Counted from the stretch's first letter, positions 412 to 49,153 are shown. The stretch: 50,664 nt of DNA from a virus (IMGVR_UViG_3300033149_003997:1-50664); one strand, 5' to 3'. The notes: generated by a model from the letters alone, not told the origin. Made by a program: numbers and translations.

Positions 412-830
412 TATGCAAGCCTCCCTGCGGCCATGAGCCGTTTATTGGTATCCGAAAGCCCTACATCTCCGCCATAAAGCGTTGCCAGGCGGCGCGGATC
501 CCTTACGATCCGGCGGCCCACCACATAAGGAGCGCTGGGCCGTAATATACGGTCAACGTGGTAGTCGTTTTCGTAGTATTCCTCAACGGTAATAGGGTCC
601 CGGGTGGTGTGGCCGCAGTCCAAGCAGACACCCACGGTATTACCTTCAGCATCCTCGTGCCACAGCGCCCAGCCCTCGCAACCCTCGCAGACAGGTTGCT
701 TCCATACGTCATAGCCAAAGTATCGCTTCAGGCGATTGCGCCAGAACCCCTTGGGCCTAACAACGTGCTTAAAATGGGTGGTCTCGCGGAACATGTTGGC
801 AAAGTGCTTATTGCTCTCTGCGGTCCTCAT
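411..830 (-). CDS. Zinc-ribbon-containing late protein, unknown function
   Basis: A 139-residue protein whose ATG overlaps the portal stop codon (ATGA junction). The centre carries a four-cysteine motif, CEGC followed after about 20 residues by CLDC, expected to bind one zinc. The N-terminus is basic. It is part of the portal operon. I do not recognise the family, so its job (virion component or assembly factor) is unknown. Confidence 0.8.
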   Translation of the reverse strand: MRTAESNKHFANMFRETTHFKHVVRPKGFWRNRLKRYFGYDVWKQPVCEGCEGWALWHEDAEGNTVGVCLDCGHTTRDPITVEEYYENDYHVDRILRPSAPYVVGRRIVRDPRRLATLYGGDVGLSDTNKRLMAAGRLA

Positions 831-2701
831 ACCGGGCCACCTGTGGGGGGAAGGGCGGACTGCATAGGATTACCCCCCGCAGTCAGGCCAGCTACATCCG
901 GGCTCATCATGGGCTCCTCGCCCATACCCATGCCGCCAGGCATACCGCCGGGCATACCACCCATGGCTTGCATCTGCATTTCCATAGATTCCTTTAATGC
1001 CTCTTCGTCATCATCCAAAGGCAGCCCTAAGATATCTCGTGCGAACTTACGGATCTCCACCCATGTCACCGCATTGCGACCATCAACCACCATCTGCGAT
1101 AGCTTCTCAAGCATAGCCTGAAGGAAGGCTTGGTTTTTGGGTAGGCCCGCGCCGATATTGATTTCGATGTCTAGCTCCACCTTTTTAGTCACAGCCTCAC
1201 CGTACTCATCGGTGAGCTCCTGCCACTGGGGAGTAGGAGCGCCGGGATTTTGTTCCTGGAACTGCCGCAAATAAGCCTCTTCTGGCGGGATCATCTGAGG
1301 GATTCGATTCATCTGGTCAAAGTTAATCCATAGCCACTGATCCTCGTTTTCATCCAGCCTGAACCATTTGCCCTCGTCATAATGTTCCAGCATTAACTCG
1401 AGTAGGTAGCGGCAGACTTTCTGCAGCGTAATAGACAGCTGTGTCTTTTTGTGGTCAGTAGTTTGATTGCCTTGCTGTTGTTGAATAGCCGCTTCTGTTG
1501 CTGTATCTGCGGTTTTGCCGGGCTGGCCTAGCATTAACTCGCTAAAGCGGGTCACGCGCTGCACTTCAGAATGAATGGCGTTTAGAAGCCGCCATAGCGC
1601 CTCGTTGACTTTGCCCATTTCAACCACACGGATGGTATCATTCGGTCGCTCAGCGGGAATCGGGCCGTCGTCTTGGTCGAGGTCTTCAATCGATACATTA
1701 GAATCTGGGTCGATAAAGAGGCGATTGGGCCTAGCCGCACGCCTGATCTGGTCGTACAAGTCGTTTATCATATCCTGCAATGGCCTGAGCAGCTTACCGT
1801 CGCCAAACCCTATTAACTTACCTTCTTCTGGATAGCACAGGGTGAGGAAATAAGGATATTCGTTGCAGCGGTAGAATGGTTGCGGGTCATCTTTTATCTT
1901 GAACTTTTTGCCTGTCCATTCTTTGAATGAATCAAACAGCAACACCCCGTCATCGGAAAACTCCAATAGGCGGAGCTTGCCGTCGGTCTTGGTCCACAAC
2001 TGAATTAGGTAGAACGCATCTTCGTCGTCTATGGTTTTATCTTTAGAAAACACGCCCGAACGGTCGCTTCCCCCAAAGTAGATGTAATCTACCATATCGC
2101 CGTAGGTCTCTCGCGCCCAGGTCTTTGATCGCAGCATGTACTCAGCAATATAGTCTGCAGATTCCAGGTTCATGGGGTCGGTTATTTTGGAATCGACAAA
2201 CATGCTTTGTAGAGGGGGAGCGGCAAGACGAGCAAGGCCGAAACCGTCTATGGCGTCGGGGTCCCAGTACGTTTTTAACCAACCAATGCCGAATTGGAGC
2301 CGTCGCCGTTCATGGCGATCTAATATAAGCTTAAGCCCGTTCTGGCGCAGCGTCCACTCCAGGCCAACCCTGCCTGATTCAGCAAACGCTTCATCCGAGG
2401 GACCGCGCCCACGGGTGGTAATGGAAATGTCCTTATCCACCATAGAAGCAACTTGGCCTTCGATATTAGCCAAAAAGATGTTAACCCGAGAGTTGGGATG
2501 ATTATCTTTTAGTTCCTGATCGCCAGCATAGGCTTCCGCTTCCTTTTCCCAGCGGTCGTATATATCGCCCATTTCGCCGCGATTAGCGTCTATCCGCACC
2601 AGAAAGTTGTCTACAAGCTTTCTTTCCTCTTGAGACATGTGCTCCCGGTGATCGGTGTATTGTTCTCGGTCTTCCTTTTTTGTCGTGGTCCATTCAGCCA
2701 A
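827..2701 (-). CDS. Portal protein (P22-like)
   Basis: A 624-residue protein with the length and composition of podovirus portals. It would form the dodecameric ring at the packaging vertex through which DNA enters and leaves. The C-terminal tail is rich in Gly, Met and Pro (repeated GGMPGGM), and the preceding part is helical and Gln-rich, both common in this family. The start is a TTG at 2701 preceded by AGGGGTGA. It follows the sugar cassette and a small membrane-protein gene rather than directly following terminase, which is unusual. Assigned from overall sequence character and its place in the late operon. Confidence 0.85.
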   Translation of the reverse strand: MAEWTTTKKEDREQYTDHREHMSQEERKLVDNFLVRIDANRGEMGDIYDRWEKEAEAYAGDQELKDNHPNSRVNIFLANIEGQVASMVDKDISITTRGRGPSDEAFAESGRVGLEWTLRQNGLKLILDRHERRRLQFGIGWLKTYWDPDAIDGFGLARLAAPPLQSMFVDSKITDPMNLESADYIAEYMLRSKTWARETYGDMVDYIYFGGSDRSGVFSKDKTIDDEDAFYLIQLWTKTDGKLRLLEFSDDGVLLFDSFKEWTGKKFKIKDDPQPFYRCNEYPYFLTLCYPEEGKLIGFGDGKLLRPLQDMINDLYDQIRRAARPNRLFIDPDSNVSIEDLDQDDGPIPAERPNDTIRVVEMGKVNEALWRLLNAIHSEVQRVTRFSELMLGQPGKTADTATEAAIQQQQGNQTTDHKKTQLSITLQKVCRYLLELMLEHYDEGKWFRLDENEDQWLWINFDQMNRIPQMIPPEEAYLRQFQEQNPGAPTPQWQELTDEYGEAVTKKVELDIEINIGAGLPKNQAFLQAMLEKLSQMVVDGRNAVTWVEIRKFARDILGLPLDDDEEALKESMEMQMQAMGGMPGGMPGGMGMGEEPMMSPDVAGLTAGGNPMQSALPPTGGPV

Positions 2702-2706
2702 TTACT

Positions 2707-2862
2707 TCACCCCTGCAGTGTCCGCCTAGAATACAACCCGTCCTTGTTTTTGTACTTGTCATAAGGCTTTTGAGAAGTGCTCGACCTGGGCCTCGGGGCA
2801 TATAGGCACCCCACCCAGCCAATCGCAATCCCGATTAGTAGAATCACGGCACCCCAAGCCAT
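2707..2862 (-). CDS. Small single-pass membrane protein
   Basis: A 51-residue ORF beginning MAWGAVILLIGIAIGW, one clear transmembrane helix, followed by a basic polar tail. An AAAGGGGG Shine-Dalgarno lies about 10 nt before its ATG. It overlaps the end of the dehydrogenase-like gene by 19 bp and ends 5 bp before the portal start. Function unknown. Confidence 0.65.
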   Translation of the reverse strand: MAWGAVILLIGIAIGWVGCLYAPRPRSSTSQKPYDKYKNKDGLYSRRTLQG

Positions 2863-3569
2863 GATGCGGAACCCCCTTTGGGACGATAGATTTCCTTAAG
2901 AAAAGGGCTGGGGTATTGCTTATCCAAGATTCGCGCGTTAGGGACCACACAGTGGCCTCCTATATCGCCCTCTGGCGGCTCTAAAATGTATCGCTGATAC
3001 TCAGGGTACCCCAGCTCTTGATATAAGTCGTTGTAGCTTTCATCCCATAGCCGAACCAGCTCATAGTCCATCGAAAGATCAGAGCATACAGATTCCGTGT
3101 ACCGCGCGAACTCAATATTGACACCGTAAAGCGAGGTAGAACGCAGCTTCAGAAATTCCACCCATTCCGGGCACTCCAGAACTACAGGCTCGCGGAAAGC
3201 CTCTTTGAAGAAGAGCTCCGTCAGTGCGTTGACCCCGCCCATAAAGACTGGCCACTGTTGCAGGCTCTCAGCTAGATCGGGGTGCCTGCCCTCAATAGGG
3301 CAGTGGACAGCGCCAAGAATTTGACGGGTGGTCCCTATGGCTACGGTACTGAAGATGATGGTGGCTCGGGCACAATGCCGCTGCCTGTAGCCATTGACGA
3401 TGTCAACGAAGTCTTGTGAGTAGGGAATGGCAACCAACAGCACATCAAAGGAGCCATCTGGCTCCGGCTCCTTCAGCCCGGTGTCGTAGATGGTTATGTC
3501 GTGCTGGATACCGTAGACTTCCGCTACCGCTCGCCCTATTTGGCCATAACCCACAAGTAGGGCCTTCAT
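2844..3569 (-). CDS. UDP-sugar dehydrogenase-like NAD-binding protein (shortened)
   Basis: A 241-residue protein. The N-terminus is a Rossmann fold (GYGQIG near residues 8-13, followed by an acidic residue after strand 2). A STVAIGTT stretch and a C-terminal GGHCVVPN segment recall the UDP-glucose/GDP-mannose dehydrogenase family, where GGHC carries the catalytic cysteine. Family enzymes are usually over 400 residues, so the central and C-terminal domains are reduced or absent. Its ATG overlaps the TGA of neuA. It probably acts on an activated sugar or sugar-derived carbonyl; the substrate is unknown. Confidence 0.6.
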   Translation of the reverse strand: MKALLVGYGQIGRAVAEVYGIQHDITIYDTGLKEPEPDGSFDVLLVAIPYSQDFVDIVNGYRQRHCARATIIFSTVAIGTTRQILGAVHCPIEGRHPDLAESLQQWPVFMGGVNALTELFFKEAFREPVVLECPEWVEFLKLRSTSLYGVNIEFARYTESVCSDLSMDYELVRLWDESYNDLYQELGYPEYQRYILEPPEGDIGGHCVVPNARILDKQYPSPFLKEIYRPKGGSASWLGVP

Positions 3570-4216
3570 GCCACCAGCCCCTGTTCTACCAGAGCCTGCG
3601 CGATCTGTAAATCCTCGGGCTCGTCAATTTCTATGGACCGAATCCGGGGCATTTTGTAGAGGGCGGGCTTATGGCTCCATAAAAAACCCATGTCCAGCAA
3701 CAACCGCGAAACCAAGAAGATAGCGCCGTTTCTGACGTAGCACTTGTGCTTCTGGCGATCGTAGTAACCTCGCTCTAACTGCCTGCCGTCGGGCTCGTGC
3801 AGCCTGACGGGAGGAATCCCTTCGGTGACGGATACCACACTCATAGCATTCATAATGCGGTAGAGCTCCAGTGCTCCGTTTATGTCTTCAGCGGACCGGA
3901 AGGGAGAGGTTGGTTGCAGAAGCATAACTGCATCCGTCTTGCCCCATTTGCTTTCGTACCACTGCACTGCGTCTCGCACTACAGGCAACATAGGGATGTC
4001 GTCTTTGGCCAGTTCCAGCGGTCTCTCACGAAAACGGAAGCGCTCCCCTAGATTTGAAAGGTCCAGATCGGAAGTCAGAACTACATCCGCCAGATCGGAG
4101 TCCTCTGCCGCCTCAATGGTCCACTCGACAACCATTCGTGCGCCAAGCGATTGAAGGTTTTTCTTCGGTATCCTCTTACTACCCGCACGGGCAGGAATTA
4201 CTCCTACGACTTTCAT
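3566..4216 (-). CDS. neuA: CMP-nonulosonate cytidylyltransferase (CMP-sialate synthase)
   Basis: A 216-residue enzyme that would activate a nonulosonic acid with CTP to give CMP-sugar and pyrophosphate. The N-terminal signature IPARAGSKRIPKKN binds the nucleotide, followed by the family motifs LQPTSPFR and, near the C-terminus, IDEPEDL. The ATG at 4216 was chosen because GGAGG lies 8 nt upstream and the signature then begins at residue 7; an upstream ATG at 4240 has no such site. It overlaps the end of neuC. The protein is about the length of cytidylyltransferases without the extra C-terminal esterase domain. Sugar specificity cannot be read from the sequence. Confidence 0.9.
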   Translation of the reverse strand: MKVVGVIPARAGSKRIPKKNLQSLGARMVVEWTIEAAEDSDLADVVLTSDLDLSNLGERFRFRERPLELAKDDIPMLPVVRDAVQWYESKWGKTDAVMLLQPTSPFRSAEDINGALELYRIMNAMSVVSVTEGIPPVRLHEPDGRQLERGYYDRQKHKCYVRNGAIFLVSRLLLDMGFLWSHKPALYKMPRIRSIEIDEPEDLQIAQALVEQGLVA

Positions 4217-5333
4217 AGTACGCCTCCAAATGCGCGGCAATCCGCTCGCTAGCGTATCCGTCCCCGAAAGTGAAATCGGGCTCGTAAATTTGCCCCAACT
4301 GATAGCGAACCGCGCTTAGAATCTGCTGAGTGTCATAGTCGACAAAGACCGTGTTTTTACCGTGTTCCCGGCCGTTTTGCCGAGTGCCTATACAGACGTA
4401 GGGAACCCCAAGAAACGCCCCCTCTTTTATACCCGCCGATGTATTGCCAAGTAGACAAGAGCAACCCTTGAGCAATCGCCCAAAATCTTCCGGGCTGAGG
4501 TTTTTGAAGAAATGGACGTAGTCGGGGTTTTCGATTTCTCTGAACCGCCGCAAGGCCTCGCTGATCGCGTCTTGACCTGCATCGACATTAGGCCAAAACC
4601 ATACCGTCTGCATCCGCAGATCCCTAACAGCGTCCAGGGTGGCCTGTATTTCGCTCCCCGTTGCACCATACTCAGTAGTAACTGGATGCTGTAAAACAAC
4701 AAGGTATGGCTGGCTCAGGTCAAGACACGGACCTACCCCGCCGTATTTTTGCATGAGATCAGGTTTGCGCGACCAATCTATCCCGGCCAGAAGGTCTAAA
4801 GATGGGCTTCCCACGCGGGTTACAGCCTGGTCAGGGATATCCAGCGACAAGATCTTCTGGCGTGCTTTTTCGGTTACAGGAAAGTGCAGATCAGCCAGGT
4901 GAGAAATGGCGTAGCGAACCTTGTCATCAATACTGCCGGTATCTTCTCCTCCTTCAGTATGGGCCACTGGGATGTTCATGTAGGCCGCTGCAGTCGCCAC
5001 CGCAAGCATTTCGTATCGATCCGCATGAACAAGGACTATATTGGGCCGAAGCCTCGCCAGTGTGTTAGACACATACTGCATTAAAACGCCAGTTGTCGCC
5101 GCCATGTTCTGTGGGCGGTCGCCATCTACCACGCAGTAGAGCCGCTCCTGAATTTCAAATTCCGCTTCAATTAGGTCAACGCAGCCCCAGCGGTCCAAAA
5201 GGGCCGACCCCGCAACGATGAGTTGCAGTTGTAGTCTAGGATGTTGTTCAATGGCTTGAAGTACGGATTTCAGGCGGCTGTAGTTTGCGCGGGAGGCGAC
5301 GACAACGGCGACTTTTACTTGTTGTCGCCCCAT
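4179..5333 (-). CDS. neuC: UDP-GlcNAc 2-epimerase (hydrolysing), NeuC type
   Basis: A 384-residue GT-B fold epimerase. Homologues convert UDP-N-acetylglucosamine to ManNAc plus UDP, the first step of sialic-acid synthesis. Family marks are the N-terminal VVASRANYSRL (ligand and arginine loop), HTEGGEDTGSIDD in the middle, VLQHPVTTE, and GNTSAGIKEG near the C-terminus. Length fits the full enzyme. Its start lies inside the last codons of neuB and its end overlaps neuA. With no dehydratase or aminotransferase beside it, N-acetylneuraminate is the simplest product; a variant substrate cannot be excluded. Confidence 0.88.
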   Translation of the reverse strand: MGRQQVKVAVVVASRANYSRLKSVLQAIEQHPRLQLQLIVAGSALLDRWGCVDLIEAEFEIQERLYCVVDGDRPQNMAATTGVLMQYVSNTLARLRPNIVLVHADRYEMLAVATAAAYMNIPVAHTEGGEDTGSIDDKVRYAISHLADLHFPVTEKARQKILSLDIPDQAVTRVGSPSLDLLAGIDWSRKPDLMQKYGGVGPCLDLSQPYLVVLQHPVTTEYGATGSEIQATLDAVRDLRMQTVWFWPNVDAGQDAISEALRRFREIENPDYVHFFKNLSPEDFGRLLKGCSCLLGNTSAGIKEGAFLGVPYVCIGTRQNGREHGKNTVFVDYDTQQILSAVRYQLGQIYEPDFTFGDGYASERIAAHLEAYYESRRSNSCPCG

Positions 5334-6115
5334 TTTCCTATGTAACGCCTCGCCTCCTGGTCGGGTATAGCGTTTTCGCTATACATCATCTTTTGTATCG
5401 TTTCTCGATACCTACTCAATTCATGAAACTGGGCGGGGTCTATAGAGACGGCCCAGTCACGGCTGGGCGTTTCCATATCCAACATGAAGTGCTTTTCTAA
5501 AGCCGCAACACCTAGGGCCAGCGCTACCTTAGCCACATCGGTCCCCACCGTGTGGTCAGAATATCCCACACTAGGGAAGAACTTATTTAAGGCCGCGATC
5601 CGCAATAGGTTGGCCTTTTCCAGTGGGCAGGGGTATAAGGAAACACAGTGCATAATGGTGCACCGCGCCGCTTCCGTACCTAAGAACTTAGCCAGTTCCA
5701 TGATTTCTTCGCCGCTGTGCATCCCAGTAGAGATAATGACGTGATCAAAATTGGCCAAGCACTTTTCGATGAGTTTCCACGAGTTGCAGTCCGATGAGGC
5801 TATCTTGACACGTTCCAGCCCTAAACTGGCTAAAAAGTCAACGGTATCAAGGTCAAAAATCGTGGTCAGAAACTCGATTCCGTTATTCTCACAATGCTTG
5901 AGTAGGCTTTCGTGGTCTTTGTAGGACAGCTCGTGCTGTTTGTAGTATTGGTATTCGCTCTCGTAGTTCGGCCAGGTAGGGCTGAGTTTATCGGCCCGCC
6001 AGGACTGGAACTTAATCACATCCGCGCCGCATTCAGCCGCAGTGCTCGCCATTTGCTTCATAGTGTCAAGACTGCCGCCGTGGTTGGCGCACGCCTCCGC
6101 AATCAACACAGTCAT
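5315..6115 (-). CDS. neuB: Nonulosonate (sialic acid) synthase, NeuB barrel without SAF domain
   Basis: A 266-residue TIM-barrel enzyme that condenses phosphoenolpyruvate with ManNAc or a related sugar. Family marks in order are AEACANHGGS at the N-terminus, IKFQSW, KIASSD, ISTGM, HCVSLYPCP, VGYSDHTVG and ALEKHFMLD. The ATG at 6115 overlaps the methyltransferase stop (TAATG) with GGGGGT about 8 nt upstream. Cellular NeuB proteins are usually about 340 residues with a C-terminal antifreeze-like (SAF) domain; here the protein ends just after the barrel, so that domain is missing. Confidence 0.9.
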   Translation of the reverse strand: MTVLIAEACANHGGSLDTMKQMASTAAECGADVIKFQSWRADKLSPTWPNYESEYQYYKQHELSYKDHESLLKHCENNGIEFLTTIFDLDTVDFLASLGLERVKIASSDCNSWKLIEKCLANFDHVIISTGMHSGEEIMELAKFLGTEAARCTIMHCVSLYPCPLEKANLLRIAALNKFFPSVGYSDHTVGTDVAKVALALGVAALEKHFMLDMETPSRDWAVSIDPAQFHELSRYRETIQKMMYSENAIPDQEARRYIGKWGDNK

Positions 6116-6984
6116 TACCGATACCCCCAACTTCCCATGAGAACCTTGAGTTCAATCACCTTGTCCATCATCTGTAGGTGGTTTACTAAGGCAAGCACGT
6201 CCGGAGGTTGATATTTAGGTTCCTGTGGCTCGCCTGCCTCCGAAAGAACGTAGAGTTTCTCACCAATCCGCTCATCTAGCACCCAGTATTGGGTAGGTTT
6301 CAAGCCCACTTTCATCAAGCACGCCACCAGAACCGGTAGGGTAAACTGATAAAGGTGCGCGCAACTCATGAAAGCGTCGGTGGTGATGTTTATCATCCGT
6401 GTTTCCAGGTTAGGAACACTGATAAGTAGGTGCCCCTCGGGAGCCATCAGTCGTCGCAGATGCCTCAACGCTTCCACTGGGCTTGGCAAGTGCTCCAACG
6501 TATTCAGCATGGTCACCAGATCAAAGGGCTTGTCCGGCTCGTAGTTTTCCAACCTTTCCGAGATAATGCGCGGATGCTTTATCTCGGCGTTGGGCTCCAG
6601 GCCCCATGCATCCAGGGCCTTACTAAGCCGATCCACCAACTTGCCGGTAGAACACCCAACGTCCAGCATCCGCTTTATACCAGCGGGCAACTGACGAATC
6701 ACGCTCATGGCGTTGGTTGCATGTATATCTTCAATCTCAGGATTGATGGGGTATAATTCCCGGTATTGGGTGCGGTAGAACTCGTCCAACTCTTCATCAC
6801 TCATGCGAGGCGTTACATAGACCAACCCGCAGTTTAGGCAAATGACGGATCGACCGTTTTGGATCCGGCCATCTTCGTCACGCGCAACCGTTCCGCGCAG
6901 TACTCCGGCCGCCTCTCGCGCTCCCTTATCCCATATGACCAGATAATCGTCTCGGCCACATAGGTCGCACTTCACGTCTATCAT
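6115..6984 (-). CDS. Zinc-ribbon class I SAM methyltransferase, sugar-modification type
   Basis: A 289-residue protein. The first 60 residues carry CDLC and CLNCG pairs followed by VYVTPR and a FYRTQY helix, the N-terminal zinc-binding layout of methyltransferases found in surface-polysaccharide loci. The SAM-binding motif MLDVGCSTG follows, then LEPNAE and MLNTLEHLPSP. It would methylate a sugar or sugar nucleotide, which fits its place beside neuB. Its ATG overlaps the preceding stop. The acceptor is unknown. Confidence 0.8.
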   Translation of the reverse strand: MIDVKCDLCGRDDYLVIWDKGAREAAGVLRGTVARDEDGRIQNGRSVICLNCGLVYVTPRMSDEELDEFYRTQYRELYPINPEIEDIHATNAMSVIRQLPAGIKRMLDVGCSTGKLVDRLSKALDAWGLEPNAEIKHPRIISERLENYEPDKPFDLVTMLNTLEHLPSPVEALRHLRRLMAPEGHLLISVPNLETRMINITTDAFMSCAHLYQFTLPVLVACLMKVGLKPTQYWVLDERIGEKLYVLSEAGEPQEPKYQPPDVLALVNHLQMMDKVIELKVLMGSWGYR

Positions 6985-7265
6985 GATTCATAAACCAGCA
7001 TTTGGTAGCTGGCGGTAGTAGAGGTAGACACTAGAGCAAGGTACTGCGCTATCAGGTCTATAGTGTCTCCTTCTTCGAGCATCCAGCAGTCTGTAGTTCC
7101 CGGCGCAGTACTGAGTGATGAAATGTAGACTATACCGGTAGTACACTCGACGGTAAACGGCTGATAGCCCGAGAAGTTAACCACAGAAGGGCTGCTACCG
7201 TCAGTACTAGCCAGCCGCTCTGAATAGATTGTCTTGACCTTAGGGAATAGCGGGCGGGTGTACAT
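6981..7265 (-). CDS. Small beta-rich protein inside the sugar cassette, unknown
   Basis: A 94-residue protein rich in Ser, Thr, Val and Tyr with alternating polar and hydrophobic stretches, resembling small virion decoration proteins rather than an enzyme. The ATG at 7265 was chosen because GGGAGCG lies 7 nt upstream. The gene begins inside the end of the 2-hydroxyacid dehydrogenase gene and its stop overlaps the methyltransferase ATG, so it is co-translated with the sugar enzymes. The family is not recognised. Confidence 0.6.
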   Translation of the reverse strand: MYTRPLFPKVKTIYSERLASTDGSSPSVVNFSGYQPFTVECTTGIVYISSLSTAPGTTDCWMLEEGDTIDLIAQYLALVSTSTTASYQMLVYES

Positions 7266-8181
7266 TGATTCGCTCCCTTTCAATGAAGTCTCTAATCTTT
7301 TCCGCAATAAAGACTTGGGTTTTTTCGCGCGATTCCCGCGTGTTTCCGGCTATGTGAGGAGTGATCAGTAATCTGCCGCGTACATCGGCATAGCGGAACA
7401 AGGGAGAATCCCACAGCAGGCCCTCGGCTTCGTGACAGACAACGTCAAGGGCCGCTCCGGCCAGTTTACCAGCTCGCAGGGCATTGATTAGGGCTCGCTC
7501 GTCGACCACCGCGCCCCGGCTGGTATTGACAAAGTAAGCCGTAGACTTCATCGTTTCAAAAAAGTGTGCGTTGCACATACCTTTGGTGGTTTGATCTAGT
7601 GGTACATGCACTGAAACGATATCTGATTCACGCAACAGGTCTTGTAAAGGCGCGCTCCCACTACCGACAACATCGCAGTAGAGCACCCGCATGCCGAAAC
7701 CCTGCCCAATTATGGCCACCTGCCGCCCCACGCGCCCCATACCGACGATGCCAAGGGTTTTCCCGCGTAGTTCGGTGCCCTGCCAGCGCTCGCGGTTCCA
7801 GTCGCCGGACAAAACGTCCTGATGTGCCCAGGGGATCTTGCGAATCAGGGCCAAAACCAGAGCCCATGTGTGTTCGGCGGTGGCATAGACATCGTCTAAA
7901 AAACCCCGCTCACCGTTCAACGAGATAATCCTAATGCCCTTAGTCCGTGCATGAGCGACATCGATATGATCAAGCCCAGTCGTGCAGGATGCAATGAACC
8001 GGAGCTCCGGCATGGAGTCAATCATCCTCCATGTAACCGGAATATGGAGGCTCGCAATCAGCCCCTCAGCGCACGACATCAATTTGTGAGGGTTATAGGT
8101 CTCGTGATACTCAATCGCGGCCACAGGGGCCAAAATGGAGGTTGCCTCCCGCCCCCAGCGGTCAAAGCTGACGATATACAC
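7240..8181 (-). CDS. D-isomer-specific 2-hydroxyacid dehydrogenase
   Basis: A 313-residue NAD(P)-dependent dehydrogenase of the phosphoglycerate/hydroxypyruvate family. It contains the dinucleotide site GIVGMGRVG, the catalytic-arginine segment NTSRGAVVDE, AALDVV, and the catalytic histidine in TPHIAGNT. Length is typical of the family. The start is a GTG at 8181, just after the stop of the small gene upstream, with AGGGGA about 10 nt before it. It is the first enzyme of the cassette after terminase. This family is not part of the standard sialic-acid route; it may supply or consume a 2-keto or 2-hydroxy acid. Confidence 0.85.
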   Translation of the reverse strand: MYIVSFDRWGREATSILAPVAAIEYHETYNPHKLMSCAEGLIASLHIPVTWRMIDSMPELRFIASCTTGLDHIDVAHARTKGIRIISLNGERGFLDDVYATAEHTWALVLALIRKIPWAHQDVLSGDWNRERWQGTELRGKTLGIVGMGRVGRQVAIIGQGFGMRVLYCDVVGSGSAPLQDLLRESDIVSVHVPLDQTTKGMCNAHFFETMKSTAYFVNTSRGAVVDERALINALRAGKLAGAALDVVCHEAEGLLWDSPLFRYADVRGRLLITPHIAGNTRESREKTQVFIAEKIRDFIERERINVHPPAIP

Positions 8182-8182
8182 C

Positions 8183-8362
8183 CTATCGCCTTCCCCTGCG
8201 CAAGTGCTGAGGCAGTGGTTTGCCCGGATTCCTGCGCTTGAAGCTCTTCCTGGCCTTGGAGTATGCAGCTGCAGCCGCCTGGTCGCTTGGGTGACCCGCC
8301 GCTATCATCTCTCTGATGTTGCTGCTAATAACCGACATGCTGTAACCCGACTTGAGCGGCAT
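8183..8362 (-). CDS. Small basic phage protein downstream of large terminase
   Basis: A 59-residue protein beginning [20 protein letters not shown] and ending in a very basic tail. The pattern MPLKxG...ISxNIxxMIxxGxPxxQAxAxAxSKAxKS recurs in small proteins near terminase and portal genes of many phages; their role is not known to me. The start has GGGGGGT 5 nt upstream and lies 3 bp from the terminase stop. Confidence 0.75.
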
Positions 8363-8364
8363 GA

Positions 8365-9744
8365 CTACCCCCCAATCACCCGGACCTGCTTCCGCAACTT
8401 CCGAATTTCGGCGTCGGAATAGCCCAAAAGACGCAATTCGCCAATATGGTAAGTGCCTTCTAGCTTCGGCTTTTCGGGTTTATTAGGCCGGGGACGAGAC
8501 ATAAGCCCGTATCGTAGCGCGTCGTAGGCGTGATCCTCCGCATCTGTATCCACGTCCTCCGGTCTCTTATCGTCTAGGGGTAGCGCCGGAAGCGTCCTGA
8601 TGAGGTTGGTGCAGTTGGCAAACACCTTGAGCTTGGCTGTCTTCTGCCCCTGTTCGTCTTCATAGGGCTGGAGGAACTCATGCACATGCAGTTTACCGTT
8701 TAGGCGGTCGTTATTGGCTTGGCGAGGCCTATAGCCCCGCTTCCCCCAGATTTCGGCCACGCTGGAGCCCGTCTCCGGATGCTTATTCCACACATCTGGG
8801 GGAGCCAGTCTATACCGGATCGGCTCACCATGTTCCATTTCAAGAACTTGGTCCGCCTGATCAGATGCAACCACTCCGGCCCGATAATACTCGCGGTAGA
8901 CATAGATGGTCTCGTCTGGCGCAATTGCAAACCATAAGACACAGCTGGGATCGGAATAACCAAAGTCCTGGGCGGTGAACCGCCGCCAGTCCGGCGGAAT
9001 AGGAAACGGCTGAATAACGTGTATGGCCGGGTCCCATTCGCCGAATGCCTGTCCCATAAATGAGTACCAGTCGCCGGTTAGCAGAGCTTTTCGCAAGTTT
9101 TCGTCGGGAATGGCCTGAAGGCGGCGTAAATACTCCGGGTCAGCCTCCATCAGGTGTGGATTGTCCCGCACCGTGGCCGGAATAAAGAGCCTCGTGCGCC
9201 CAACCTCGTCCGTGAACACGGTCTCAGGTGTAGCAGGTTGAATAAACCGTTCCCGTACCCACAAAAGACCCACGCCAACAGGGTTGGACGTGGCGCGGAT
9301 AGTCGGTTTCGCACCCCGGATAACTGTGCGGTTCCAGCCAAAAAGCGTCGTGAACTGAAACTCAGTAAACTGCGTCAGCTCGTCAAAGCAGATATCCAGG
9401 TAGTTTCCGCCCTGATACTGCCAGACATCGCCTTCATCGTTGCAATGCCCCAACCTGAGCGTGGAACTATTGGGGAATCGCCAGGTGCGCTCCTGTTTAT
9501 TAAACGTCGCACCCGTAGGAGTTAGGAGTTCATAGGCGCGAGGTATGATCTGGTTCTGAAACTCGGGAAAAGTGCGCCTAAGAAGCAACCCCTGTGAGCT
9601 GGGAATCTGCGTGCGGCGCATAATCTGCCAAATGAGAACTGCGTCCGTTTTGCCGCCGCCAGCCGCGCCGCCATACAGAACCTCGTCTACTTCCGTCGCC
9701 CTCAAAAACAACCTCTGACGAGGGGAGGCCGTCCACTCAATCAT
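8365..9744 (-). CDS. terL: Terminase large subunit
   Basis: A 459-residue DNA-packaging motor. The N-terminal ATPase has Walker [10 protein letters not shown] (25-33) and Walker B ICFDE (acidic pair at 121-122). The C-terminal nuclease begins with [10 protein letters not shown], whose aspartate is the first metal ligand, and ends with [13 protein letters not shown], the usual last acidic cluster. It translocates DNA into the capsid through the portal and cuts the concatemer. The ATG overlaps the terS stop region. Downstream, where portal would normally follow, the sugar cassette intervenes. Confidence 0.93.
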
Positions 9745-16730: not shown

Positions 16731-17705
16731 TTAAACCGTGACAGCTTGCGTAGCCAGGGGGTGCGAGGTAATATAGTGGCGGCGCACATGTTCCCGGCTG
16801 ACGTGGAGATAGACCTGAGTGCTCTGAAGAGACGCATGCCCCAAGAGCTCTTGCACAGCCGTTAATGGGGCACCGTGTTCAACCAGGTGGGTTGCACACG
16901 TATGTCGGAGGGTGTGCGCTTTTACCTTCCTTATTCCCGCTCTTCTTGACGCAGTGGCTAACAGACGGGAAACAGCCATTCGCGATAATCTCTCACTACC
17001 GTATCCGATAAACAGCGCCAGTGAATCGTCCCATCGGGGGAACTTTTTCCGCCAGTGGCTGATCCACTCGTCGAGAAGTTCCAGCACCGATTCACAAACA
17101 CAGACAATCCGGTCTTTGGATAGCTTGGCATGTCTCACTCGTATTTCACCACCTTCCCAGTTGATATCGTCCAAGTCTAACCCTACCAGCTCCCCAACCC
17201 GCAACCCGGTGGCATAGAGCAAAGTGCAGGCAGTCCGGTCGCGGAACCCAATAGGAGTGTTGGGAAAGGAGCCCAGTAGTCTCGCCGTTTGATTCTCTGT
17301 CAGTACATTAGGTAGCGACTTTCGTTGTGCGGTAGGTGGCTTGATGCCGTCAAAGGGGTTGCTCTTAGCTTTTTCCTCACTTTGCAGGAATTGATAATAC
17401 ACTCGGAGCATGGACTGAATTCGCACTATAGTGGAAGGTTTATATTCGCCTATCAACTCGTCTACAAAAGCCGCGGCGGTGTACAAATCGGCATCGGTAA
17501 GGCCTAACTGCTGCCCAAGTAGGTAGTCGTGCCAGCGCGCAATCCACAGACAATACCAGTCGATGCGCGGTTGGCTCGTAACGCCCTGCCTGTACCGTAG
17601 GTAGTGACGGAACCGTCCAAGCATATCGACCACCTTCCGTGTTTTTTGGGGTTCTGTATTCTTCGTTAAAAACCCGCCAATTCTTGCAGCTTTCAAAACA
17701 TTCAA
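16731..17705 (-). CDS. int: Tyrosine recombinase (phage integrase)
   Basis: A 324-residue site-specific recombinase of XerC/D-like build. It has an N-terminal SAM-like DNA-binding domain (about 20-130) and a catalytic domain with Arg169 (TGLRVGEL), Lys194, HTLRH (His264, Arg267), GH at 289-290 and the nucleophile Tyr299. All catalytic residues are present. The ATG has AGAAGGGA upstream. It would insert and excise the phage genome, marking the phage as temperate. A terminator-like hairpin just upstream separates it from the repressor transcript. Confidence 0.93.
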   Translation of the reverse strand: MNVLKAARIGGFLTKNTEPQKTRKVVDMLGRFRHYLRYRQGVTSQPRIDWYCLWIARWHDYLLGQQLGLTDADLYTAAAFVDELIGEYKPSTIVRIQSMLRVYYQFLQSEEKAKSNPFDGIKPPTAQRKSLPNVLTENQTARLLGSFPNTPIGFRDRTACTLLYATGLRVGELVGLDLDDINWEGGEIRVRHAKLSKDRIVCVCESVLELLDEWISHWRKKFPRWDDSLALFIGYGSERLSRMAVSRLLATASRRAGIRKVKAHTLRHTCATHLVEHGAPLTAVQELLGHASLQSTQVYLHVSREHVRRHYITSHPLATQAVTV

Positions 17706-17819: not shown

Positions 17820-18185
17820 TCACGCACAAGCTACTTGCGCGATCATCGGCGAGCTAAAACCCGCTGATGTCATCGGATCAGCGGCTAATCTCGCCAATCG
17901 CCAAAAGGCATACTGAACAACCTCTTTGCGCTCTGCCTCCGGCAACTCACGCATGAGGCGCGTCAGCGCATTCTCCTCGGTTGGCTCGTCAATAAACACA
18001 GCTGGAGAAACACCTAAAGTATCGGCTATCTGAGCCAGAACTCGCAAACTAGGCATTTGGTGCCCATTTTCAATTGCGCTTATATAGCTCTGGGTGACAC
18101 CAGCGCCATCCGCCAAGTCACTACCCCTAAGCCCCGCCTGTTTACGATACATACGAACTCGCGCTCCCAATACCTTCAAATCCAC
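17820..18185 (-). CDS. CI-like XRE repressor
   Basis: A 121-residue protein from the GTG at 18185, which has GAGGAGGTGGG upstream; a longer frame would run through the promoter. The N-terminal helix-turn-helix of the XRE/HTH_3 family is clear (GSDLADGAGVTQSYISAIENGHQMPSL), followed by LAQIADTLGVSP. No C-terminal peptidase domain is present, so it is not a LexA-type self-cleaving repressor. It is transcribed divergently from the Cro-like gene and is the probable lysogeny repressor. Confidence 0.85.
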   Translation of the reverse strand: MDLKVLGARVRMYRKQAGLRGSDLADGAGVTQSYISAIENGHQMPSLRVLAQIADTLGVSPAVFIDEPTEENALTRLMRELPEAERKEVVQYAFWRLARLAADPMTSAGFSSPMIAQVACA

Positions 18186-18208
18186 TACACCCACCTCCTC
18201 GCCCTTAC

Positions 18209-18237
18209 AGAGTACCACATAATGAAATATATCACAA
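18209..18237 (-). promoter_or_regulatory. Repressor promoter (leftward)
   Basis: On the minus strand TTGTGA and TACTCT are spaced by 17 bp, about 24 bp before the repressor GTG. Confidence 0.65.
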
Positions 18238-18238
18238 G

Positions 18239-18333
18239 GGGTTATGCAGAAAGCCGACAACATTTCCAGAGTTCTGCACAGTAATTTCAACTCAACCTAA
18301 AGAAACAACCGGAATATGGCTTGACGCATAACC
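18239..18333. promoter_or_regulatory. Candidate switch operators (paired GCATAACC sites)
   Basis: GGTTATGC at 18239-18246 and its inverse GCATAACC at 18326-18333 abut or overlap the -35 regions of the two divergent promoters. The second is joined by a CACCGGTG palindrome at 18332-18339. The symmetric placement suggests binding sites for the repressor and the Cro-like protein. Confidence 0.5.
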
Positions 18334-18350
18334 ACCGGTGATGTTATATT
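18321..18350 (+). promoter_or_regulatory. Early rightward promoter of the switch
   Basis: TTGACG (18321-18326) and TATATT (18345-18350) are spaced by 18 bp, or by 17 bp using TTATAT. It stands 30 bp before the Cro-like gene. Confidence 0.75.
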
Positions 18351-18379
18351 AGATATGGTTGGAACTGGAGGGCAGTAGA

Positions 18380-18589
18380 ATGGCCGAGGTAACGTCACTT
18401 AGGGTGGCAAGGGAAGCACTAGGGCTAAGCCAACAAGAGCTGGGGGAGCGCCTGGGCGTCTACCAGTCCTACGTTTCTATGGTTGAGGGGGGGCACAGAA
18501 CACCAAGCCTCCCTGTAGCCCATCGTTGGGCGGAGACCTTGGAATTAGACGTTGACCGTTTCTGCGATCTTCTCAAAAAGGAGGGATAA
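18380..18589 (+). CDS. Cro-like XRE regulator
   Basis: A 69-residue helix-turn-helix protein (LSQQELGERLGVYQSYVSMVEGGHRTPSL) covering just the XRE domain, the usual size of Cro. The ATG at 18380 has GGAGGG upstream; an earlier in-frame ATG overlaps the promoter start region. It is divergent from the CI-like gene and first in the recombination and replication operon. Confidence 0.85.
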   Translation: MAEVTSLRVAREALGLSQQELGERLGVYQSYVSMVEGGHRTPSLPVAHRWAETLELDVDRFCDLLKKEG

Positions 18590-30208: not shown

Positions 30209-30454
30209 GTGACCGGGGAAATAATAGGGTTCATCATATCCATGGCTTTACTTCTTGGGTTGTATATCCTGTGCGAAGGACTAACGACGCCTCGAAACCC
30301 GATCTGCACCAGGTGTGGCAGAGAGATTGAACATAGCCCGCACCTGAACCTGACGACATATTCATGTATCCACCTCGAGCCGGTCAAGCATAGGCTGTGT
30401 CTGTCATGTCAGGCGGATTTGCACGGGTTTCTGGCGAGGAAGGGAGCGGCATGA
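30209..30454 (+). CDS. Membrane-anchored zinc-ribbon protein
   Basis: An 81-residue protein from a GTG in the recurring context GGAGCGGCGTGA. One transmembrane helix (IIGFIISMALLLGLYIL) is followed by CTRC and CLSC cysteine pairs. Function unknown. Confidence 0.6.
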   Translation: MTGEIIGFIISMALLLGLYILCEGLTTPRNPICTRCGREIEHSPHLNLTTYSCIHLEPVKHRLCLSCQADLHGFLARKGAA

Positions 30455-31155
30455 AGGAAACAGACCTCTACCCACCCGTAAAACAGTGGCTGGAGGAACA
30501 GGGATACGAGGTATATCCCGAAATCCCAATAGGCAGCTCGGGCGCGGTCGCGGATGTGGTAGGGGTTAGGGAAGACGACGACGGAGCGCCAATAATTGTT
30601 ATAGTCGAACTCAAAACCTCACTCAGCCTTGCTCTGATGGAGCAGTGCCATAAGTGGCGAAAGCGCGCACATCTCATATATGCGGCGGTTCCAGCGTTGC
30701 AGCGTCGGCAGTGGCCTCGCCCAGGCTTGCGGTATTTGAGAATGGACGGCACGGGGTTATTGGAAATCGAGGAACGATACAACTTTGACACAAAGGAGAC
30801 CTATCTAAAAGCTCAAAAAACGGAATCTGCTAAATGGGAAGACGACGTGAGCCTTGCATGGTTGAGCGATCTCACTGATCTACATAAGACTTGGACTGTG
30901 GGTGGAACCGGCAAAGGCGGATACTTATCGCAATATCGACTAACAATGCTCGGCATTCGCGAGTATTTAGAGGCACGCAGCCCGGAATGGGTTGCGGTCA
31001 AGCAGATCGCGAAAGAATGCCCCCACCACTATCAAAGCCGCTATCCGTACAACTCGATTGCTAGAGCATTGGGTTTCATTGAAGATTGGGCCGAGACGAA
31101 GCTGGTTGAGGACGAACTCTGTGCACGGGTTAAGCCGGAGGGGGGAGCGGCGTGA
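30451..31155 (+). CDS. PD-(D/E)XK nuclease-like protein, long tandem copy
   Basis: A 234-residue protein. The N-terminal 120 residues look like a restriction-endonuclease fold: helix DLYPPVKQWLEEQGYEVYPE, then ADVVGV with Asp35, and IVELKTS with Glu53 and Lys55 (D...E-x-K). The C-terminal 90 residues are an added helical domain (LTMLGIREYLEARSPEWVAVKQIA) resembling a winged-helix. The ATG overlaps the previous stop. Probably a DNA nuclease or a single-domain restriction-like factor. Confidence 0.65.
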   Translation: MKETDLYPPVKQWLEEQGYEVYPEIPIGSSGAVADVVGVREDDDGAPIIVIVELKTSLSLALMEQCHKWRKRAHLIYAAVPALQRRQWPRPGLRYLRMDGTGLLEIEERYNFDTKETYLKAQKTESAKWEDDVSLAWLSDLTDLHKTWTVGGTGKGGYLSQYRLTMLGIREYLEARSPEWVAVKQIAKECPHHYQSRYPYNSIARALGFIEDWAETKLVEDELCARVKPEGGAA

Positions 31156-31577
31156 AGGAAACAGACCTCTACGCTCCGGTGAAACAGTGGCTGGAAAACA
31201 AAGGATATGAGGTATATGCTGAGGTGCAGCTATCTGCGTGTGGGCCAATCGCGGATGTTGTTGCTGTCAAGGCGGGGCCGGAGGTGGTCATAGTAGAGCT
31301 GAAGACCATGTTCGGTCTGCCTTTGCTGGAACAAACGCACAAACGGCGGCACCTTGCTCATTGGATCTATGCAGCGGTGCCCGCGCCCAAGGACACCGGG
31401 TGGCGGCACGGATATCGATATTTAGAACTAGATGGGACTGGGCTTTTGCAGGTGTTTCCTCGTGGCATCATATCCGAGGTTGTTCCGCCAGCAAAGTGCG
31501 ACGCGCCGTGGGTGGAATGGGTGAATACGCTTTGTGAGGCTCATAAGCTGGCCATTGGTGGTACTGCGTATCAGTAA
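31152..31577 (+). CDS. PD-(D/E)XK nuclease-like protein, short tandem copy
   Basis: A 141-residue paralogue of the preceding protein, with the same MKETDLYxPVKQWLE start and catalytic-type residues Asp35, Glu49 and Lys51. It ends at KLAIGGTAYQ, which aligns with the junction TVGGTGKGGYLSQ where the longer copy begins its extra helical domain. It therefore retains the nuclease core and lacks the C-terminal domain. The GTG overlaps the upstream stop. Confidence 0.65.
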   Translation: MKETDLYAPVKQWLENKGYEVYAEVQLSACGPIADVVAVKAGPEVVIVELKTMFGLPLLEQTHKRRHLAHWIYAAVPAPKDTGWRHGYRYLELDGTGLLQVFPRGIISEVVPPAKCDAPWVEWVNTLCEAHKLAIGGTAYQ

Positions 31578-41954: not shown

Positions 41955-42006
41955 GACGACACCTCCTTTCACAACCATCATATGGCAGGAGGTGGAAGAA
42001 GCGCAA

Positions 42007-46586: not shown

Positions 46587-47321
46587 TCACACCGTCCAGT
46601 TGGTGAGCCAGTATTTGATGTCTTCTTGGGCACCGGCTATTTGCTGAAGGCCGAATTCCATCTGCTGTAATTGCTGTTGGAGCTGCAGCTTCTGCTGGAG
46701 CAGACCCTTTTTGCGCCCCTCCAACTCCTTCATGCGGGACTTCATCTTGATGCGCATGGAGTTGTCCGTTTCAAATCCGTAGAGCAAGCCGGTCTTCAAC
46801 AAATCGGAATCAGCCGGAATAGTAACTTTGACCCCGCGGCCCTCGCAAATACCGATGATGTATTCACAGCTGGGCCGCTGATGCTGATATTCAGAATCCT
46901 GGGCCATGTCCACACCGTAGATAGCGATTTCTTCAAAGCCTTCGTAAAGAGCATAAGCTATCATCCACGAAATTGAGTTGGTGAAGTACTTGGCCCCGTA
47001 GTATCCCTGGTCTTCTAGCCATTTAACGATGTCATCCTTGGGGAACTTAACCGAGTTGGGAATGTCCTCGTACTCTTCCCACATGTAGATGGGAATGGGG
47101 GCGCTCTTGAGCCAGCCTATATGCTCCGGCTTGTTCTTTGATGGGCTCTGGCGCGAGTGAATCTCAAACCAGCGATCGGCCCGGGTTCCGGGGTGCTTCT
47201 GAAATAGCTTGTAGAGCTCGTTCAGTCCCCATATTTCATAGGATTCATCCGCAAACGGGGCCTGGTTCCAGGAGGGGGCAAAGCCCACTATAGCTACCTT
47301 GGTACGTCTTTCTTCGTCCAT
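46587..47321 (-). CDS. Rossmann-like phage protein, possibly glycan-related
   Basis: A 244-residue protein from the ATG at 47321, chosen for GGAGGCACAG upstream. It has a Rossmann-like start (KVAIVGFAPSWNQAPF), then WGLNELY, ADRWFEIHSR, FPKDDIVKWL, YFTNSISWMIAYALYEGFEEIAIYGVDM and SDLLKTGLLYGFE. The C-terminal 60 residues are a Gln-rich coiled coil. The family is widespread in tail-gene regions. The fold recalls MptE/DUF115-type proteins that include sugar transferases, but I cannot confirm it. Confidence 0.6.
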   Translation of the reverse strand: MDEERRTKVAIVGFAPSWNQAPFADESYEIWGLNELYKLFQKHPGTRADRWFEIHSRQSPSKNKPEHIGWLKSAPIPIYMWEEYEDIPNSVKFPKDDIVKWLEDQGYYGAKYFTNSISWMIAYALYEGFEEIAIYGVDMAQDSEYQHQRPSCEYIIGICEGRGVKVTIPADSDLLKTGLLYGFETDNSMRIKMKSRMKELEGRKKGLLQQKLQLQQQLQQMEFGLQQIAGAQEDIKYWLTNWTV

Positions 47322-47342
47322 ACTGTGCCTCCATGTAGTGGT

Positions 47343-47385: not shown

Positions 47386-48231
47386 TTACGTTGTTGAGGT
47401 TGTAAACGTCGGGTAGGTGTATCCCGACGAGTCGGCTCCAACACCGAGCAATATCCACTGTGAGGTCGAAACACCCATCAGCTCAACTACACCCCGGGTA
47501 CTAAAGACGATGTTGTTTGCTGCGGTGGTGTTAATGAAGCACGCCGAGGACCCACTGAAGATAGTCACTGTATCCGATGATCCAGCATAGGTACAGTAGA
47601 TGGTTTTGCGTACACCCGCCGAGGGGGCAGCCAGTACAGCGGTTACGGGGGCTCCGGTGGAGCTGGCGATGGTGGTCACGCCGTAGTTGGGTAGGGTGGC
47701 CGCAGAACTGCCAGCCGCTACACTTTCAGCTACGCCGGTGCCCAGGGTCTTATTTTCCAGCGTTTGCGCGTCCGTGGTGTTAACCAGCGTTTGCGCCCCG
47801 GTGGTGGGCCACGTTACGCTGCCTAGGGGATTGATTTCGCTGGTCTTGGCGGTTATCTTGGCCGCACTATCTTCGGTTGTCCACAAGACCCTAGCGGATT
47901 CCGCCGTTGTCGGGGGCATATAGACCAGTGAATTGACCGTAGTGGCCAACACGAGCTGAAAGGCCCCTGACGTCTTCAATTCCGCCCCGGATGCAATGGT
48001 TAACGTTGCGCCAGTGGTGGGCGCAGTAACGGTGACCTTATTGATTGATTTATTGGTGAGGTCTTGGGTTTCAGTGGTCCCGACCAGCGTCAGGACTTCG
48101 GTGGAGGGAGCGTGAATGAGAGTTGCTCCATCTACGCGTAAGCCACCCGTTGAGGTGGCTATCTTGAACTCAGTCGTGCCGCTTTTGGTATAGAGGTCGC
48201 TGCCGTCAGCTAAGACATTTTTCTGAGCCAT
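47386..48231 (-). CDS. Head fibre or fibre-like virion protein
   Basis: A 281-residue Ser-, Thr- and Ala-rich beta protein. It has two T-x-x-x-QxLxNKxx units (TETQDLTNKSINK and TTDAQTLENKTLG), common in phage fibre and head-fibre proteins. AAAGGGAG stands before the ATG. It directly follows the capsid gene, so a capsid-surface fibre is more likely than a tail part. Confidence 0.65.
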   Translation of the reverse strand: MAQKNVLADGSDLYTKSGTTEFKIATSTGGLRVDGATLIHAPSTEVLTLVGTTETQDLTNKSINKVTVTAPTTGATLTIASGAELKTSGAFQLVLATTVNSLVYMPPTTAESARVLWTTEDSAAKITAKTSEINPLGSVTWPTTGAQTLVNTTDAQTLENKTLGTGVAESVAAGSSAATLPNYGVTTIASSTGAPVTAVLAAPSAGVRKTIYCTYAGSSDTVTIFSGSSACFINTTAANNIVFSTRGVVELMGVSTSQWILLGVGADSSGYTYPTFTTSTT

Positions 48232-48252: not shown

Positions 48253-48276
48253 GTAGTCGGGATTAACCCGAACTAC
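48253..48276 (-). other. Hairpin across the capsid gene stop codon
   Basis: GTAG-TCGGG pairs with CCCGA-CTAC, with the stop codon of the capsid gene in the loop. No U-run. Confidence 0.6.
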
Positions 48277-49153
48277 CGACTATGCCGATATTCGGGAGTG
48301 CTCCGGTGTTGTAGATTGCGATTGCATTCAGATACAGGTTCTTGGTGTTGATCTTATCCTCGTCGCCGTCAAAGTCGGTCTTCATGAACCACTGGAACAA
48401 AACGTGCTCATAGCTCGTGTCCCATAGGAACCAGGCGGAAGTATTGCTAAGATAGGTGGAATATCGCCAGTCAATGCGCGGCAGGGTATTTTTGGTATTG
48501 CTCATTTCGTAGGCCTTGAGGGTGGACTGCATGATTTCCTCAATGGTGAGCTGCTTACTGTAATGAGCAAGCCCGGCGTTAGGCCGCGCCTTCATTGGCC
48601 CGCCTTGGTGGTTCTTGAAGTCGTAGAACATGTTGATAGCGGTTTGTACATTGTCGGGGCTTACCGCGCCCGTGGTCAGGGTGTCGTTGTAGGTTGCGGC
48701 AATGTCGGCCAGCGGCTTGGAATTGGAGCACAGAGGCACACCGTCCGCTAGATTGACATCAAACGCATTGTCGAACCAGTAGATGGCGTTCTCTTCCTCC
48801 AACTCGCGCATGGTCCGGGCCAGTTCCTTGGCCCGCACATCGTTGATTACGCCGTAGAGGTCGTATTTGGTGGCCTCCAGCGTAACCTCGTAGCCGTTGG
48901 CCCATGTCTTGTTGGTAATGGTGGTTTGGTAAGCCTGTTCTACCTTGCCGTACTGAATCGAACTACCTTCCTGCTTCTCTCCGGCGGCTTTTAAGTTACC
49001 CATCGAATCATAGGTTTCCGACTTCTTGGTTGCCGTCTTGGCCGTAGTGAAGTCGGGGTATTCAATGGGGTATGATTCAAAGTTGCGGGTGAAGATTTCC
49101 TTCTGGCCCGCAACGATCATCCTGGATATATCTGATGTCATGGTATAGGCCAT
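48263..49153 (-). CDS. Major capsid protein
   Basis: A 296-residue protein related in pattern to the HK97-fold, Mu gpT-type capsid subunits (MAYTMTSDISRMIVAGQKEIF...PIEYPDFTTAKTATK...TWANGYEVTLEATKYDLYG...WRYSTYLSNTSAWFLWDT). It follows the scaffold and decoration genes and has TGAGGAG upstream. No N-terminal protease or delta domain is seen; a separate scaffold is encoded. Confidence 0.85.
   Translation of the reverse strand: MAYTMTSDISRMIVAGQKEIFTRNFESYPIEYPDFTTAKTATKKSETYDSMGNLKAAGEKQEGSSIQYGKVEQAYQTTITNKTWANGYEVTLEATKYDLYGVINDVRAKELARTMRELEEENAIYWFDNAFDVNLADGVPLCSNSKPLADIAATYNDTLTTGAVSPDNVQTAINMFYDFKNHQGGPMKARPNAGLAHYSKQLTIEEIMQSTLKAYEMSNTKNTLPRIDWRYSTYLSNTSAWFLWDTSYEHVLFQWFMKTDFDGDEDKINTKNLYLNAIAIYNTGALPNIGIVGSSG

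Follow-up and report, generated by a model that had tools for sequence, protein, structure and literature searches.

Sialic-acid-type sugars (nonulosonates) occur on animal cells and at the surface of bacteria. On flagellin, they are placed on serine and threonine (Ser/Thr) residues by Maf enzymes, whose central domain resembles Cst-II (PMC11339370). Glycans also occur on phage particles: mycobacteriophage capsid and tail subunits carry them at their C-termini, as far as can be told from the citation of Freeman 2023 in PMC12619734, and phage-encoded O-acetyltransferases are reported to act on capsule nonulosonates (PMC6586298). The system considered here lies in IMGVR_UViG_3300033149_003997, an IMG/VR record of 50,664 nt from an uncultivated phage (the window). 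It comprises a cassette of genes for synthesis of a cytidine monophosphate (CMP)-activated nonulosonate, with NeuC, NeuB and NeuA homologues at its core, and GTX, a candidate transferase encoded near the capsid gene. With a probability of roughly 0.62, the phage encodes a complete CMP-nonulosonate route along with its own transferase, and the target is the virion.

Like the Maf system, the locus combines three elements, a CMP-nonulosonate cassette, a transferase resembling GT42 and a protein with Ser/Thr residues that is built into a filament or shell, and by analogy it could be viewed as Maf-type flagellin nonulosonylation moved to the virion. GTX, however, is a single domain of ~245 aa, whereas Maf has three domains with an MptE-like one at the center, and the proposed acceptor is a virion protein instead of flagellin. 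With the Campylobacter GT42 enzymes CstI and CstII, GTX shares the predicted fold, the top profile matches and four aligned residues; it differs in its sequence (~17% identity), in lacking a match for Tyr156 and in its long C-terminal helix (189-244), and its family is phage-specific and found in virion operons. Bacterial neuC-neuB-neuA sets have the same three core enzymes, but the phage NeuB lacks the SAF domain, a D-2-hydroxyacid dehydrogenase homologue (HADH), a sugar dehydrogenase-like protein (DH) and a methyltransferase are added, and the set lies in a phage late operon. The mycobacteriophages offer a likeness in that phage virion proteins are glycosylated, as far as the citing source relates. 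To our knowledge, no nonulosonate pathway is known there, and the transferases differ. The O-acetyltransferases are reportedly likewise phage genes acting on nonulosonic acids, but they act on host capsule, whereas the window set amounts to a whole synthesis within a head operon. Glycosylation of phage virions has been described before, but the open-access literature searched held no report of phages making their own nonulosonates for a dedicated transferase, or of any phage nonulosonate cassette tied to virions.

Gene order and the late operon

A direct repeat of 114 bp is present at both ends of the contig (1-114 and 50551-50664), and the genome is therefore taken to be circular and complete. 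The late operon thus crosses the contig ends, which puts GTX and the cassette in one late operon rather than 40 kb apart. On the minus strand, the order is TerS, TerL, an open reading frame (ORF) of 59 aa, HADH, a 94-aa Ser/Thr-rich ORF, the methyltransferase, NeuB, NeuC, NeuA, DH, a small ORF and portal, continuing past the contig ends with a scaffold-like gene, capsid, a gene designated c1, GTX, spike and tail genes. The circular join is supported by the relatives L107, L108, L111 and L173, where the order portal, two ORFs, scaffold, ORF, capsid, c1 and GTX is unbroken.

A preliminary description of the window had placed the six enzyme genes between large terminase and portal, with overlaps at stop/start junctions. 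All six are there, on the minus strand, and overlap as described; the NeuB start ATG at 6115, for example, overlaps the methyltransferase stop (TAATG). The description had also seen no promoter or terminator around them, and a consensus scan (sigma-70 only) indeed found none above chance that would set the cassette apart, with 6 promoter-like matches against 7.8 expected and 13 terminator-like matches against 9.9. Late co-transcription with the head genes would fit this arrangement. Gene order, here and in relatives, supports both the late expression proposed in that description and its suggestion of a CMP-activated sugar possibly carried by virion proteins; its observation is confirmed, and its interpretation partly so.

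The putative transferase GTX

The GTX gene lies directly 3′ of c1, which follows the major capsid gene. Taken alone, GTX gave no useful match in Pfam or PHROGs, and a single-sequence search of PDB was empty. When a 70-member profile of the family was searched against PDB, the nine best matches were all GT42 sialyltransferases (E 0.0022). The Pfam CST-I model weakly matches 8 of the 70 members (best E 3.9e-4) and the MptE-like model (Maf domain, PF01973) weakly matches 7, while the GTX of the window does not reach the curated CST-I cutoff and gave no match. Because it is not a Maf by architecture and falls below the CST-I model, GTX was filed as its own GT42-like family.

A template-free AlphaFold (AF2) model of GTX reached a predicted local distance difference test score (pLDDT) of 92.7 and a predicted template modeling (TM) score of 0.82. 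When it was searched against PDB with Foldseek, all 15 matches below 1e-3 were CstI or CstII (best 9e-6, probability 1.00), though with a TM score of 0.46, and the next unrelated fold appeared only at 7e-3. Residues N36, S120, D140 and Y147 align with CstII N31, T131/S132, D154 and Y162 (numbering from the codon at 47327). Y147 is 97% conserved, H57 and R151 are conserved as well, and the invariant or nearly invariant positions include G15, W33, N36, H57, P96, N117, S120, G138, D140, E146, Y147, R151 and Y183; conservation of the GVDMA motif is in part a consequence of the pattern with which the family was searched. From its sequence relationships and modeled fold, GTX is proposed to be a CMP-nonulosonate transferase. 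The preliminary description had held that the set has no evident sialyltransferase, a statement not supported in view of this gene, whose predicted fold is GT42-like and whose occurrence in phages follows that of the cassette.

Association of GTX with the cassette

Searching IMG/VR for GTX relatives led to L090 and L091, in which TerL and portal flank a cassette of the order NeuB-GTX-NeuC-NeuA; GTX is inside the cassette in L090, L109, L115, L122, L124, L130, L132, L133, L145 and L179. NeuB is present in 32 of 83 GTX-bearing IMG/VR records and in none of 62 controls picked by terminase (terL) similarity. Among records of at least 15 kb, it occurs in 24 of 35 with GTX and 0 of 20 controls (Fisher p 3e-7, an approximate value because a few phages are represented by more than one assembly). 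A fairer test is provided by 19 records chosen by shared capsid protein, blind to NeuB and GTX: six carry NeuB, and GTX is found in those six plus one 4-kb fragment. Most capsid-matched records without NeuB or GTX are fragments that either start within or beyond portal or break off partway through the cassette (L174, L176, L177, L184 and L185); L190, the most distant capsid relative (29%), has neither gene in the region read.

The unrelated phages G044 and G046 pair GTX with a legionaminate-type set (dehydratase, aminotransferase, NeuC, NeuB, cytidylyltransferase and amidotransferase, assigned by similarity and reading), so the sugar appears to vary while GTX stays. When 84,980 GTDB genomes of bacteria and archaea were scanned with a GTX pattern, there was one match, on a contig with phage genes. 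Single-sequence NeuB pattern scans of IMG/VR and GTDB gave no match, NeuB being too divergent for the method, and a portal scan likewise gave none. Judged by these comparisons, the cassette is a recurrent phage module and not the oddity of one phage, and GTX and the cassette very probably work together.

Several loci show further variation. In L096 and L097, two unrelated phages, the cassette is of legionaminate type and includes both an amidotransferase and a sulfotransferase, the latter suggesting further decoration of the glycan. In L168, L169 and L171, two tandem GTX genes directly follow an aminotransferase (DegT) and a dehydratase-like short-chain dehydrogenase/reductase. L090 has a divergent second GTX paralogue inside its cassette (L090:7974-8828), which is 27% identical to the GTX of the window. 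Among isolated phages, Mvi-Yong1342-1 of Microcystis carries a GTX homologue adjoining the small terminase (PP496355.1 34781-35584; L191:19932-20735), and its annotation as a "type 11 methyltransferase" is probably mistaken.

Candidate acceptor proteins

Where GTX lies outside the cassette, it usually follows a capsid gene and a gene for a Ser/Thr-rich protein, so that the putative transferase is encoded with virion genes in three unrelated types of head module. In these loci, the gene directly upstream of GTX has a median Ser+Thr content of 25.7% (n=52), against 13.0% for other same-strand genes (n=748; p 8e-15), and the enrichment holds across all three modules. Three families, c1, c25 and c26, directly precede GTX, and all end in Ser/Thr-rich tails, with 50% Ser/Thr in the last ten residues compared with 10% in other clustered proteins (p 3e-24) and 20% in other Ser/Thr-rich proteins. 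Seven annotated phages whose capsid proteins are related, but in which GTX was not detected, served as a control; their genes after the capsid gene have 8-21% Ser+Thr, all tails but one are at most 30%, and a Ser/Thr-tailed gene at this position is mostly lacking.

The c1 family was found in 25 GTX loci. The model is confident for its C-terminal beta domain (~178-266) but not for the tail; in Foldseek, the domain weakly matched the capsid spike of Pseudomonas phage Pa223 best (1.4e-4), followed by tailspike and baseplate proteins, and PHROGs gave no useful name for c1. Homologues of the 94-aa protein of the cassette lie beside GTX in L104 and L111 and after c1 in L174, L177 and L179. The most likely acceptors are c1 and this 94-aa protein, with c1 the first choice on a circumstantial link to GTX.

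Cassette enzymes

NeuC passes the NCBIfam equivalog cutoff for the hydrolysing 2-epimerase, and its closest relative in PDB is the bifunctional UDP-N-acetylglucosamine (UDP-GlcNAc) 2-epimerase/N-acetylmannosamine (ManNAc) kinase GNE (4zht, 8e-64); the expected sugar would therefore be ManNAc-derived, that is, of the N-acetylneuraminic acid (Neu5Ac) type. NeuB retains the barrel active site of sialic acid biosynthesis, with K40, Q42, K109, S191-D192-H193, E212, H214 and D225 (numbered on a 271-aa ORF starting at 6130) conserved in 22 phage homologues. The C-terminal SAF domain is absent from this 266-aa protein, which matches the 329-position NeuB_NnaB model over 2-265 only. Most phage homologues are short too (at most 278 aa in 16 of 22), as is the best PDB match, 6ncs, a NeuB of 290 aa. 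The best PDB match of NeuA is a CMP-NeuAc synthetase.

The remaining genes are likely to tailor the sugar. HADH lies upstream of NeuB also in L090, L109, L115, L122, L124, L130, L132, L133 and L145. DH has no match in Pfam or NCBIfam; a six-member family profile matches UDP-glucose 6-dehydrogenases in PDB, and the protein lacks the UDP-binding domain, while catalytic-type Lys141 and Cys207 (GGHC) are invariant. It recurs as a partner of the module in L109, L122, L130, L145, L147, L170, L173 and L179, and it is because both dehydrogenases recur in this way that they are regarded as likely tailoring enzymes. The methyltransferase, also a likely tailoring enzyme, adjoins NeuB in L108, L111, L130, L132 and L173.

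Proposed function and alternatives

The pathway would begin with conversion of host UDP-GlcNAc to ManNAc by NeuC, after which the short NeuB would condense ManNAc with phosphoenolpyruvate to a Neu5Ac-type acid, NeuA would activate the nonulosonic acid with cytidine triphosphate, and HADH, DH and the methyltransferase would probably tailor the sugar. With the cassette transcribed late alongside the head genes, the CMP-nonulosonate would be made during assembly, and soluble GTX, produced next to the capsid protein, would move the sugar onto Ser/Thr of virion surface proteins, most likely c1, with its Ser/Thr C-terminal tail, and the 94-aa protein. The likely outcome would be an acidic glycan coat on the particle. 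There is about an even chance that the locus exemplifies a widespread, phage-specific virion nonulosonylation, in which many tailed phages with unrelated heads would have GTX, most of the longer records adding a CMP-sialic or CMP-legionaminic acid pathway of their own, and would cover proteins of the capsid surface with acidic sugars of a type that varies by phage. If so, bacterial viruses would sialylate their own particles without host help, a widespread uncharacterised phage family (probably misannotated in the only cultured phage found with GTX) would gain a function, a small transferase of one domain would become available for glycosylating proteins, and a concrete test of glycan coats in phage adsorption, stability and recognition would be at hand.

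Several points weigh against virion modification by GTX. Its likeness to GT42 is remote (TM 0.46, ~6 A root-mean-square deviation, 17% identity, sequence E 0.002), it has an alanine (A142) where CstII has Tyr156, and no residue can be assigned to His188. In the NeuB of Neisseria, the SAF domain missing here completes the active site. NeuB is not seen in 11 of the 35 GTX-bearing records that reach 15 kb or more, nor is it annotated in the stretch of Mvi-Yong1342-1 that was read. The c1 model is weak overall (pLDDT 69), and the tail comparison was made after c1 had been picked as the neighbor of GTX.

An unlikely alternative is that the sugar modifies the host surface (lipopolysaccharide, capsule or S-layer), either late in infection or during lysogeny, and so blocks superinfection or helps release progeny; GTX would then, with the same low likelihood, be a sialyltransferase for surface glycans. 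CstI and CstII of bacteria do act on cell-surface glycans, and the phage is probably temperate, since it has an integrase and repressor-like genes, even though the cassette belongs to a late operon. The location of the genes within the head operon in unrelated phages, the position of GTX after a capsid gene and a Ser/Thr-rich virion-type protein, and the failure of the sigma-70 scan to show a promoter of the cassette's own all argue for the virion instead.

It is rather improbable that the virion is modified on an acceptor other than c1, such as a tail spike, another tail protein, the capsid protein or the 94-aa protein. Several genes for Ser/Thr-rich virion proteins lie near GTX, and adjacent genes need not be an enzyme-substrate pair, but a c1, c25 or c26 family member with its Ser/Thr-rich tail directly precedes GTX in many loci. 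Improbable too is a different role for GTX, for example as a nucleotide-binding assembly factor of GT42/MptE fold, with the cassette feeding an unseen transferase. The fold is common to GT42 and MptE-like domains (PMC11339370), and two phosphate-contacting or catalytic CstII residues are unmatched; against this stand the almost complete agreement between GTX and NeuB occurrence among the capsid-matched records, the presence of GTX inside cassettes and the lack of any further recognised glycosyltransferase among the window genes examined.

Phage glycosyltransferases are said to put diverse glycans on DNA (a 2024 study, as far as its citation in PMC12619734 conveys), but hypermodification of the phage DNA is a very remote prospect here, with the genes in the head operon and, among the window ORFs read, no gene recognised for base hydroxylation or nucleotide hypermodification. 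Sugar genes often hitch-hike, but cargo useless to the phage is equally far-fetched, and host contamination, which the preliminary description had listed as a refutation, was rejected, given the circular contig, the repeated location in many independent assemblies of relatives (26-75% identity) and the catalytic residues kept.

Other features of the window

Table 1. Positions of GTX, the cassette and flanking virion genes in the window.
Feature	Position	Strand	Basis or remark
GTX, GT42/Maf-like glycosyltransferase (putative); ATG 47321, ribosome-binding site ggag	46587..47321	-	Profile and structure search
c1, Ser/Thr-rich (30%) virion-type protein, proposed acceptor	47386..48231	-	C-terminus YPTFTTSTT; immediately upstream of GTX
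94-aa Ser/Thr-rich (27%) virion-type ORF inside cassette, possible acceptor	6981..7265	-	Homologues in relatives
HADH, D-2-hydroxyacid dehydrogenase homologue, first enzyme gene of cassette	7240..8181	-	PF02826 3e-51, PF00389 3e-13
S-adenosylmethionine methyltransferase, N-terminal Cys pairs	6115..6984	-	PF13489 1e-17
NeuB-type nonulosonate synthase, TIM barrel only	5315..6115	-	PF03102 2e-61
NeuC-type hydrolysing UDP-GlcNAc 2-epimerase	4179..5333	-	TIGR03568 337 bits vs cutoff 236
NeuA/PseF-type CMP-nonulosonate cytidylyltransferase	3566..4216	-	PF02348 1.5e-11; PDB 6ifd 4e-20
DH, UDP-glucose/ManNAc-dehydrogenase-like	2844..3569	-	Six-member profile vs PDB 7kws 2.5e-5
Large terminase TerL, upstream border of cassette	8365..9744	-	Context
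59-aa ORF bridging TerL-HADH gap	8183..8362	-	Next gene after TerL
Portal, P22-type, downstream border of cassette	827..2701	-	phrog_156 4e-34, PF16510
Major capsid protein	48263..49153	-	phrog_371 9e-12

Elsewhere in the window, a tyrosine integrase and helix-turn-helix regulators were seen at 16731-17705 and 17820-18589. The late region encodes a protein of 1280 aa (36297-40139) that contains the large polyvalent protein domain LPD38, and a putative secreted protein among the tail genes (41358-41981) has weak similarity, below cutoff, to the copper-amine-oxidase N-terminal domain (PF07833). The genes at 30397-31155 and 31152-31577 are tandem paralogues with a common N-terminal stretch (KETDLYxPVKQWLE..GYEVYxE).

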